A stretch of DNA of 48,167 nt, taken from NCBI GenBank assembly GCA_003554785.1, contig PWHG01000069.1, forward strand, positions 1 through 48,167, given 5' to 3'. The position numbers and the translations under genes are program-made. A model generated the notes under the pieces. It was not told where the DNA came from and searched no databases. It saw only the letters and a program-made list of their open reading frames with translations. Shown here one piece after another: positions 308 through 4,533 of this stretch (positions within the stretch are counted from its first letter, which is position 1; every line of letters begins with the position of its first letter). Source of the DNA: Candidatus Falkowiibacteriota bacterium. Its GTDB lineage: Bacteria > Patescibacteriota > Patescibacteriia > Patescibacteriales > UBA12465.

Positions 308-392
308 GATAAACAAATTTTTATTCCGTTTTAATAAACGGATCTATATAAGCGAAAGCTTTATCAAGAGTACTTGATTAAAACTTTTAAAA

Positions 393-432
<40 letters not shown>

Positions 433-1141
433 TCTAAGGCATGCAAGTCGAATGCTGATAGCAATATCGGCATGGCAAACGGGAGAGTAACACATTGGTA
501 ACCTACCCCAAAGTCGAGAATAATCCACCGAAAGGTGGGGTAATACTCGATAGTATAATTAAACATATGTTTAATTATTAAAGTTCCGGCGCTTTGGGAG
601 GGGCCTATGTCCTATCAGCTTGTTGGTGAGGTAAAAGCTCACCAAGGCAATGACGGGTAGCGGGTGTAAGAGCATGACCCGCCTCACTGGGACTGAGACA
701 CTGCCCAGACTCCTACGGGAGGCTGCAGTCAAGAATCTTCCTCAATGGACGAAAGTCTGAAGGAGCGACGCCGCGTGTATGAAGAAGCCCTTCGGGGTGT
801 AAAATACTTTTATCAGGGAAGAATCCATGACGGTACCTGATGAATAAGGGGCTGCTAACCTCGTGCCAGCAGCAGCGGTAATACGAGGGCCCCAAGCGTT
901 ATCCGGATTTATTGGGCGTAAAGCGTCCGTAGGTGGTTTATCACATCTCCTGTTAAATCCCAAGGCTCAACCTTGGGGCTGAGGGAGAGATGGATAATCT
1001 AGAGACCGGAAGAGGCAAACGGAATTGCTGGTGTAGGGGTTAAATCCATTAATATCAGCAGGAACACCAAATGCGAAGGCAGTTTGCTAGGACGGATCTG
1101 ACACTAAGGGACGAAAGCGTGGGGAGCGAATAGGATTAGAT

Positions 1142-2168
1142 AAATCCTAACTGTAGTCATTAATTTGACAAGCAGTAAACGGTGTCCCTCTTAACGGCGA
1201 CGTTAAGAGTGCATTCAGCTATATCGGGGAAAATCCTAATATTTTTTTGGTTCACTACAACCATATTTAGGGCAATCCCGAGGGAAGTTCATCAATTTAT
1301 TGATATGAACCCCGTAGAGACTATGAAGTTGATTAAAAATAGAGGGTGCTAATGATATAAACTATATGAATCAATATCAAAAAGTACCTTTGTTAGACCA
1401 AACTAAAGAGATAATCTTAGGATCTCTCTTGGGCGATGGTTCACTAAAAATCCATAAACCTTATAAAAATGCGAGATTTTCTTTTCGACATTCTAGCTTA
1501 CAGAAAAAATATTTTTTCTGGAAACTAAGTAAGTTAAAAGAAATATCGAGAGATAAGAATTATTGGATTCAAAAAAATGATTTAGGCTTTTCTAAAAAAC
1601 CTAAATTACGGTATCAAAGCAAAGCGCTTGAAACTTTAACTGATATATATAATTTTACTCATAAAAAAGGAAAATTTAAAATCAGTCGTCGTTGGTTAAA
1701 TTATATGACTCCACTGTCACTAGCCATTTGGTGGCTAGATGATGGATCAATAATTTCCAATGGACGAAAAGGAGTTTTCTGTACTGATGGCTTTGATAAA
1801 GAATCAATTAAAATTTTAGCTAGATATTTGCAGATTAATTGGCAAATTGAAACTAAGATTTCACCAGTCTATCTTAACTATAAAAATGAAAAACGAGAGT
1901 ATTGGCGATTATGGATAAGATCGACTGAACAATTAAAAAATTTTTTACAAATTATTCTGCCCTCTATTGAGGTGGAAGAAATGTTACCAAAAGTGATATT
2001 ACTTTATCACGACAATCATCTTCAACAACGCTGGATTTCTGAAATAGCAAAAAACACTAAATTTTCTGAAGAAACTATTAATAAATACGTAGTTTTAAAG
2101 AAAAAAAAGTGGAAGCAATTTTAGAAAATGATATAGTCCAACCTTTATAGTAATATAAAGAAGCATTG
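1142..2168 (+). mobile_element. Group I self-splicing intron in 16S after E. coli-equivalent U793, with ORF between R and S elements
   Basis: 5' exon ends in U (GATTAGAU), intron ends in G (gcattG), 3' exon resumes ACCCTAGTAGTCC. P-like tcggggaaaatcc, Q-like aatcccgag (TCGGG/CCCGA pairing), R gtagaGACTATgaag with GACTAT 1319-1324 pairing ATAGTC 2133-2138 in S gatATAGTCC (P7). Confidence 0.9.
1366..2124 (+). CDS. LAGLIDADG homing endonuclease (intron-encoded)
   Basis: 252 aa with two LAGLIDADG-like helices (EIILGSLLGDGSL and LAIWWLDDGSI), inside the group I intron. Confidence 0.92.
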   Translation: MNQYQKVPLLDQTKEIILGSLLGDGSLKIHKPYKNARFSFRHSSLQKKYFFWKLSKLKEISRDKNYWIQKNDLGFSKKPKLRYQSKALETLTDIYNFTHKKGKFKISRRWLNYMTPLSLAIWWLDDGSIISNGRKGVFCTDGFDKESIKILARYLQINWQIETKISPVYLNYKNEKREYWRLWIRSTEQLKNFLQIILPSIEVEEMLPKVILLYHDNHLQQRWISEIAKNTKFSEETINKYVVLKKKKWKQF

Positions 2169-2766
2169 ACCCTAGTAGTCCACGCCGTAAACGATGGATA
2201 CTAAGCATTGGCAGTATCGACCCTGCCAGTGTTGTTAATTTAAGGTAACCCGTTAAGTATCCCGCCTGGGGAGTACGAGCGCAAGCTTAAAACTCAAAGG
2301 AATAGACGGGGACCCGCACAAGCGGTGGAACATGTGGTTTAATTCGACGATAAGCGAAGAACCTCACCAAGGTTTGACATCTAGCTGCAAGGCCTGGAAA
2401 CAGGTCCGCCTTCGAGGGTGCTAGACAGATGCTGCATGGTTGCCGTCAGCTCGTGTTGTGAAATGTACCGTTTAGTCGGGTAACGAGCGCAACCCTTTTC
2501 TTATGTTTTACATGTCATAAGAGACTGCCCGTTTTAAATGGGAGGAAGGTGGGATGACGTCAAATCAGCATGGTTCTTACACCTTGGGCAACACACGTGT
2601 TACAATGGGAAATACAAAGGGACGCCAAACCGCAAGGTGGAGCAAATCCCTAAAAATTTCTCTCAGTTCGGATTGAGGTCTGCAACTCGACCTCATGAAG
2701 CTGGAATCGCTAGTAATCGTGGATCAGCTATGCCACGGTGAATACGTTCTCGGGTCTTGTACTCAC

Positions 2767-3253
2767 AATATCTGCGCCGGGCAGATTAATTTTCCAAACG
2801 GTTAAAATCCGTTCCTCCTTTTTGTCTATTAAGGAGCGTAGTTAAGAGATAGTTAATTTTCGCGAGGAAATTAGCGGAGGATCTCAAGACAAATAGTAGC
2901 CTAAAGATATAAAACGAAGAATCGACCTTTGATTGGGTGGTGAGCCTAGGGAAGATTCAATAAAAATTCGTTTTAGGATGCTAGGAAAGGAAAACTAATT
3001 TACCCCGGGAGATCTAATATTAGTGGCTTCATTAATATATTTATTAATGATATAATTAAACTAACGCTATATTAGAAGTCAGCTGATTCATAGTACTTTA
3101 ATTTATAATTAAAGGAAGGAATCACTTTAATGTATATAGTCTGGTTTAACTAAATTATATCAGTTAAAACAGAAAATGCATTAGAGCTCGCTCAGTGCGG
3201 GAAATCCGCTCGCTGAGTGGGAACATCAATTCTTAAGTTTATAAGAAGATAAT
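2767..3253 (+). other. 487-nt ORF-less structured insertion in 16S between C1399 and C1400 equivalents; probable intron of unresolved class
   Basis: Removing 2767-3253 restores TACTCAC|CGCCCGTCA. Dense hairpins: ATCTGC/GCAGAT, TAATTTTC-GCGA-GGAAATTA, AAAACGAA/TTCGTTTT, CATTAATA/TATTAATG, CTTTAATT/AATTAAAG, and a D5-like stem at 3188-3220. Confidence 0.75.
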
Positions 3254-3450
3254 CGCCCGTCATGTCAAGGGAGTCGGTAGTGCCCGAAAGCTCGCTTTAT
3301 GCGGGAATAAGGTAAGACCGATGACAGGGACAAAGTCGTAACAAGGCATCCGTAGCGGAAGCTGTGGATGAATCACCTCCTTTCTAGGGAGATCGTGGTT
3401 ATTACCACTGGTGAGACCACACGGTCGACATTATGCTAGTCATAATGTAA

Positions 3451-3486
3451 CGAATTGATGCCAATTAGACTTAAAATATTTTCACT
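3451..3486 (+). promoter_or_regulatory. 3' strand of pre-16S processing stem
   Basis: cgaattgatgccaattag complements 290-307 exactly. Confidence 0.8.
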
Positions 3487-3492
3487 ATATTA

Positions 3493-3522
3493 AAAAAATC
3501 ACCTTTATTTAGGTGATTTTTT
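3493..3522. terminator. Bidirectional Rho-independent terminator between 16S (+) and trpS (-)
   Basis: AAAAAATCACCT-TTATTT-AGGTGATTTTTT, 12-bp stem with T-run on both strands. Confidence 0.88.
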
Positions 3523-3543
3523 GTATTTAAAATATATTTTTAT

Positions 3544-4533
3544 TTATTTTACTCCAATTACTCGCTTAACTTCCTCTAATTTTTTCTCAGCTATTGCTTT
3601 AGCTTTTTCTTTACCTTTCTCCAATATCTCTTCAGCTTGACTATCACTAATTTGACTATATTTATCTTGAAACTTTTCCAGAAACTTAATTACTATGTCA
3701 GCTAAATCATTTTTAAAGTCTCCATAGCCAACGTCCTTATAGTCTTTCTCTAATCGTTTAATCTCTCTGTTTCCTAAAAAAGCATAAATTGACAATAAAT
3801 TTGAAATCGCTGGCTTTTCATCAGGTAAATAGTATATACCACTACCAGAATCTGATACTGCTTTTTTAATTTTTTTCCTAGCTACATCTGGAGCGTCAAG
3901 TAATGCAATATAGCTATTTTTATTGGCCTCACTTTTGCTCATTTTTTTATAAGGATCACTTAGGCTCATTACTCTAGCCCCTTCTTTTTTTACCATTACT
4001 TCCGGAACTTTAAAGGTTTGGCCAAATTGATGATTAAATCTTTTAGCAATATCTCTGGTTAATTCAACATGTTGTTTTTGATCTTCACCAACTGGAACTA
4101 TATCAGTATCATATAGCAAAATATCAGCTGCCATTAAAACTGGATAATTAAAAAGACCAACTGAAACTAATTCTTGTTTATCTCCAGCTTTATCCTTAAA
4201 TTGCGTCATTTTTTTTAAGTCAGACATATAACAACCCTTGCAATTAAATATCCAGGAAAGTTCAGTGTGCGCGGAAATATCTGATTGTTTAAATATAATT
4301 GATTTTTCCGGATCAATACCCATGGCTATATATAGTTTACAAATTTCTAAACTTCTTTTTTTAAGTAATTCTGGATCATGGTTTACAGTAATTGCGTGAT
4401 AGTCAACTATAGAAAAAATGCAATTGTTTTCATTTTGCAACTTAATCCATTGCTCAATGGCTCCAATATAGTGACCAATATGCAATTCTCCGCTTGGTTG
4501 AATTCCAGAAAAGATTATTTTTTTCTTATTCAT
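3544..4533 (-). CDS. trpS: Tryptophanyl-tRNA synthetase
   Basis: FSGIQPSGELHIGHYIGA (HIGH) and KKMSKS; TrpS-specific core. Confidence 0.97.
   Translation of the reverse strand: MNKKKIIFSGIQPSGELHIGHYIGAIEQWIKLQNENNCIFSIVDYHAITVNHDPELLKKRSLEICKLYIAMGIDPEKSIIFKQSDISAHTELSWIFNCKGCYMSDLKKMTQFKDKAGDKQELVSVGLFNYPVLMAADILLYDTDIVPVGEDQKQHVELTRDIAKRFNHQFGQTFKVPEVMVKKEGARVMSLSDPYKKMSKSEANKNSYIALLDAPDVARKKIKKAVSDSGSGIYYLPDEKPAISNLLSIYAFLGNREIKRLEKDYKDVGYGDFKNDLADIVIKFLEKFQDKYSQISDSQAEEILEKGKEKAKAIAEKKLEEVKRVIGVK

Follow-up and report, generated by a model that had tools for sequence, protein, structure and literature searches.

The 16S rRNA gene and its inserts

The window, that is the whole stretch of 48,167 nucleotides analysed (forward strand of contig PWHG01000069.1 from Candidatus Falkowiibacteriota, assembly GCA_003554785.1), carries a 16S rRNA gene that is interrupted twice (Table 1). 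The Rfam match to this gene overruns into the second insert, to position 2818, so its end is not the end of the gene, and the exon 3254–3380 was followed by eye as far as CACCTCCTTT. The rRNA ends and the anti-SD are intact. The first insert, at 1142–2168 on the + strand and at about position 788 of the 16S rRNA, is a group I intron with the canonical ends T|A...G|A; it encodes a LAGLIDADG_2 ORF of 252 aa at 1366–2124 and is matched by Rfam RF00028 in two pieces of 26.5 and 23.0 bits, both under the cut-off. There is no 23S or tRNA gene directly after the 16S gene (3400–4533), and the rRNA operon therefore seems to be split; the next gene, at 3544–4533 on the - strand, resembles a tryptophanyl-tRNA synthetase by eye.

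The second insert, the subject of this study, is 487 bases long and located in the decoding site of this Patescibacteria 16S gene, between the equivalents of C1399 and C1400. The numbering was fixed with two E. coli 16S copies, which exceed 1542 by 1 and 3 nt and show offsets of 1 and 2, together with the standard 1392 primer site. The 5' exon ends with TTGTACTCAC at 2766, and the 3' exon begins with C3254 followed by GCCCGTCA. In 20 intron-less loci of the same order the site is uninterrupted and reads TTGTAC[T/A]CACCGCCCG. A single C lies 3' of the insert in the window, so only the boundaries C2766/C3254 restore TCAC-CGCCCG, and alternative boundaries were rejected. No + strand ORF reaching 30 aa is contained wholly in the insert; the - strand has one, of 33 aa. 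Exon alignment, uninterrupted loci and ORF scan all agree with the original prediction of an insertion without ORF that divides C1399 from C1400. The element was also described as highly structured, and the fold of 2755–3270, which includes short exon flanks, has -144.4 kcal/mol against -109.5 +/- 6.3 for shuffled sequences (z = -5.5).

Table 1. Features of the 16S rRNA gene and of its second insert, with the evidence for each.
Feature	Position	Strand	Basis
16S rRNA gene, interrupted twice	387..3380, end approximate	+	Rfam RF00177, 1158.7 bits from 387; only copy found
IBS1 CTCAC, last 5 nt of the 5' exon	2762..2766	+	complementary to EBS1
Probable group II intron without ORF, between C1399 and C1400	2767..3253	+	Rfam, boundaries, domain V, covariation, EBS1
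5'-terminal linker AATAT before the motif (C)TGCGCC	2767..2771	+	sequence; comparison with relatives
Domain I, basal helix 2777–2781/3004–3008	2777..3008	+	RNAalifold on 74 introns
EBS1 GTGAG (2940–2944), plus preceding G2939	2939..2944	+	exact IBS1 complement; covariation
Domains II–III region	3009..3121	+	Rfam group-II-D1D4-1 at 3048–3121
LAGLIDADG_1 ORF remnant in domain IV, codons SGLTKLYQLKQKMH and stop	3140..3184	+	alignment to the intact ORFs of L034–L039
Domain V, 33 nt	3188..3220	+	pairing and compensatory changes
Domain VI, closed helix, no bulged A on the 3' strand	3225..3250	+	comparison and folding
3' end AAT, group II AY rule	3251..3253	+	sequence

Related introns in other genomes

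Eight homologous inserts, all at precisely this position, turned up when 111 genomes of the order were searched at the DNA level. A covariance model of domains V–VI and the 3' exon was then run on 380 genomes sampled from the phylum and on 381 from the class; 22 matched in each sample, the window's own genome among them both times. Most of the 107 stretches of GTDB genomes matched by a domain V pattern come from named CPR lineages, whereas the labels Omnitrophica, Saganbacteria and Methylomirabilis occur on single bins, which may be the result of misbinning. The introns L194, on a contig labelled Saganbacteria, and L214, on one labelled Omnitrophica, are family members outside CPR by label, with the same reservation about binning.

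For comparison 102 introns were extracted, and they fall on four neighbouring insertion points: A after 1399 (45 introns, including that of the window), B after 1398 (28), D after 1397 (12) and C after 1396 (9). Another eight, here called AB, have an extra C at the junction, and a cut at 1398 or at 1399 would in both cases yield a correct 16S (L045, L047, L052, L176, L184, L193, L209 and L218). L175, L176 and L193 have far longer or different 5' ends, with 23–38 bases ahead of the first GC-rich motif.

Structure and class of the intron

Rfam gives no intron match in the insert at the gathering cut-off, and the domain V–VI family RF00029 does not match it. The search against intron families that was proposed with the original prediction had a borderline outcome: group-II-D1D4-1 scores 34.6 bits with E 1.4e-4 (region 2700–3320 searched), which is 0.4 bits under the cut-off of 35, and the nearest relative, L003 from the same family, which occupies the same site and shares 84% identity over most of its length, reaches 39.0 bits. 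Relatives at other insertion positions score 35.1–55.5 bits.

Domain V of the window consists of a 9-bp lower stem, a CGC triad at 3189–3191, a GCGG/GAAAU/CCGC hairpin and a 2-nt bulge TC at 3210–3211. The triad, the bulge and the compensatory changes are group II features, and the length of 33 nt instead of 34 counts against this assignment. In nine aligned sequences 100% of the cells in the domain V pairing are paired, with two pairs changed on both sides, and the lower stem pairs in nearly all of the 102 introns at A, B, AB and C, the clade at position D excepted, where the gapless register seems to be off by one. Group IIC is marked by a CGC triad in domain V together with a reduced domain I; the triad is present in 89 of the 102. 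In the RNAalifold consensus of the 74 introns at A, B and AB the helices of domains I–III are 76–100% paired, with several pair types per position.

The ends of the insert had been called atypical, which holds for the 5' end, where AATAT-CTGCGCC, a linker followed by a GCGC-type motif, takes the place of the group II consensus GUGYG. It does not hold for the 3' end, since AAT before C3254 obeys the AY rule, and most introns at all four positions end in AT. Almost every intron at A, B and C has the conserved GCGC-type motif and an A/T-rich linker, and there is no such linker at D. The earlier failure to find a group I P7 is matched by the absence of any RF00028 hit in 2700–3320 at E up to 10, a family that does match the insert at 1142–2168; the ends C|A...T|C also differ from the U at the 5' exon end and G at the intron end of group I. 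An archaeal-type bulge-helix-bulge intron was dropped given the covarying group II core.

EBS1 and the insertion point

The putative EBS1 in domain I is complementary to the last five bases of the 5' exon, and G2939 can pair with C3254 in a delta-like manner. GTGAG is carried by all 45 introns at A. At one aligned place EBS1 reads GGTGAG[C/G] at A. At B it is GTGAGT or GTGTGT, depending on whether the exon has TCA or ACA; introns at C have TGTAC, and most of those at D have GAGTAC or GTGTAC. It is the exact 5-mer complement of the IBS1 of its own position in 99 of the 102 introns, against a mean of 39.6 and a maximum of 52 among 2000 permutations of the labels, which ignore kinship. The A and B strings overlap save for one base, a T in 27/28 introns at B and 0/45 at A, so the contrast between A and B rests on that base, and the A introns are largely one clade. 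Covariation from related genomes, the other comparison suggested at the outset, is found in domain V, in the helices of domains I–III and between EBS1 and IBS1.

Linker, branch point and probable splicing route

From the conservation of the insert and its position in the decoding site we infer that the intron is spliced, in line with the original view of an RNA element that has to be removed; it would do so without a protein. EBS1 should hold the last five bases of the 5' exon and thereby fix the cut after C2766, domain V should catalyse both steps, and the exons would be joined to GTACTCAC-CGCCCG, with a ligated junction reading GTACTCACCGCCCG. The first step would be hydrolysis by water, releasing a linear intron and not a lariat. 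The bulged branch-point A of group II domain VI is missing in the window and five extra bases precede the 5' motif, which makes hydrolysis the most likely first step, and linear, hydrolytic excision is regarded as likely. The spare As of domain VI in the window sit on the 5' strand of a closed helix. As a point against this route, folding energies leave some room for an unpaired A near -7/-8, with 0.27 unpaired at -7.

A tree was made from 387 core columns, leaving out the ends and EBS1, and rooted at the midpoint. Folding predicts a bulged A at -8 in 28/28 introns at B, 8/8 at AB, 11/12 at D, 6/9 at C and 9/45 at A, and in none of the clade of 34 introns to which the window belongs; on the tree this label takes 6 changes. 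Set beside the distribution of the linkers, this makes linker gain and branch loss look like separate events.

The insert, still as a group II intron, could instead splice through a lariat, with the A near -7/-8 as branch in spite of the linker and the closed helix. The A at -8 is retained in most introns at position A, related introns at B and C combine a linker with a bulged A, and at least one family of LHE-encoding introns with a IIB1 backbone has been shown to form a lariat (Liu et al. 2026, PMC13190283). In the clade of the window, however, this A is predicted to be paired, with 0.02 unpaired in the window itself, in a helix with compensatory changes, and the lariat route is considered unlikely, though it is by some distance the best of the alternatives.

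Very improbable is excision as an intervening sequence, in which RNase III-like processing would not be followed by ligation and the 16S rRNA would be left in fragments. Such sequences are probably common in CPR 23S genes (PMC11270868), but the decoding region that holds the site is universally conserved, and the element combines EBS1–IBS1 pairing with a complete, covarying group II core. That the element is dead and its 16S copy non-functional, or that the assembly is at fault, is given just as little credence: the assembly is a draft of 86 contigs and 82% complete, but this is the sole 16S gene found in it, its rRNA ends and anti-SD are undamaged, and the core recurs in about 100 homologues from other genomes. 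The new or unclassified ribozyme class suggested originally, for which the window's own score just under the Rfam cut-off and the atypical 5' end could speak, is scarcely credible, as homologues above the cut-off, domain V, the covarying helices of domains I–III and the covarying exon pairing all point to group II. The alternative description as degenerate is right for the lost ORF and the vanished branch-point motif, but not for the catalytic core, which has been conserved through compensatory changes. The insert is thus best read as a group II (IIC-like) intron without ORF, located between C1399 and C1400 and predicted to excise itself from the precursor rRNA, with hydrolysis as the probable first step; we give this reading a probability of about 0.87.

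Loss of the homing endonuclease and possible shifts of the insertion point

Seven of the eight inserts at the same position exceed 800 bases, and six of these seven (L034–L039) have an open LAGLIDADG_1-type frame of 151–187 codons, located after the domain III region and before domain V. Of these frames two were scanned, and both match PF00961, with LAGLIDADG_1 and no reverse transcriptase seen. The frame is broken in L032, which is the same intron as L003, and lost in L033 and in the window, where the last 14 codons and the stop remain in frame (TCT GGT TTA ... ATG CAT TAG). The ancestral intron would have encoded a LAGLIDADG homing endonuclease within domain IV and propagated at the DNA level through homing. 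In the window the endonuclease gene is deleted save for these codons, and this copy is therefore probably no longer self-mobile. Introns without ORF (under 620 bases) number 19, and since this label needs 14 changes on the tree, ORF loss appears frequent.

The introns at D and at C are each confined to one side of a branch (support 100/100 and 98/99). Position A needs 3 changes on the tree, B 10 and AB 5, and all four positions need 5 when AB is counted as B. The family may have slid base by base through the decoding site (1396–1399), with EBS1 retuned to each exon, the introns with an extra C as possible passing stages, and the clade of the window losing its branch point after the linker had arisen. 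We hold this tentatively, at slightly less than an even chance; independent insertion by homing at neighbouring sites may account for the same pattern.

Relation to known introns

Publications already cover group II-like introns at "1400" in CPR, ORF-less ones among them: the main text of Tsurumaki et al. 2024 (PMC11270868) gives 53 insertions at 16S position 1400 (site 16IS9), with a LAGLIDADG ORF in 39/53, no ORF in 14/53 and no reverse transcriptase. The window shares with these the site, the host group by kin, a group II-like Rfam score, in the window 0.4 bits short of the cut-off, and the LAGLIDADG_1 remnant or ORF-less state, and by its sequence is a further member of this known but little-studied CPR family. 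That main text treats one position, without structure, splice junctions, linker, branch point or EBS.

Another close parallel is rns-1396, the IIC-LHE introns of Thiotrichaceae (Salman et al. 2012; Liu et al. 2026, PMC13190283), which have a linker in all members, no EBS2 and a single-motif LAGLIDADG ORF in domain IV; the bacterial members listed in the latter paper are from Thiotrichaceae only. Both are bacterial 16S introns with a 5' linker, of IIC type there and IIC-like here, and the A/T-rich linker of the window similarly precedes (C)UGCGCC, but the window intron lies three bases downstream (1399), has a correspondingly different EBS1, and lacks the ORF and the branch A. The nine introns at position C insert after 1396, at the same phosphate as rns-1396, the two being equated by site and published description. 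Li et al. reportedly described, in 2011, mitochondrial rRNA introns of subclass IIB1 that have 5'-terminal insertions and lack a branch point, with linear products said to have been obtained for one. The extra 5' bases and the loss of the bulged A are shared with the window intron, whereas subclass and host differ, and linker and branch loss coincide there while most linker-bearing relatives here retain the bulged A.

A set of 102 related introns at 1396–1399, with EBS1 matched to its own exon in 99, was not found published. Neither sliding nor retuning of EBS1 at 16S 1396–1399 was found in a search of open-access main texts, which is weak evidence of absence.

The intron would account for an insertion in a stretch that ranks among the most conserved of any genome, and it illustrates how simple rules for intron ends together with Rfam cut-offs can overlook it. 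Linker-bearing bacterial LAGLIDADG group II introns would extend from Thiotrichaceae, as listed in 2026, to many CPR lineages, and perhaps also to single Omnitrophica and Saganbacteria bins. The family may serve as a natural series for how an intron shifts its insertion point while the essential RNA around it stays intact, and for the order in which group II introns gain a 5' linker and lose the lariat pathway.
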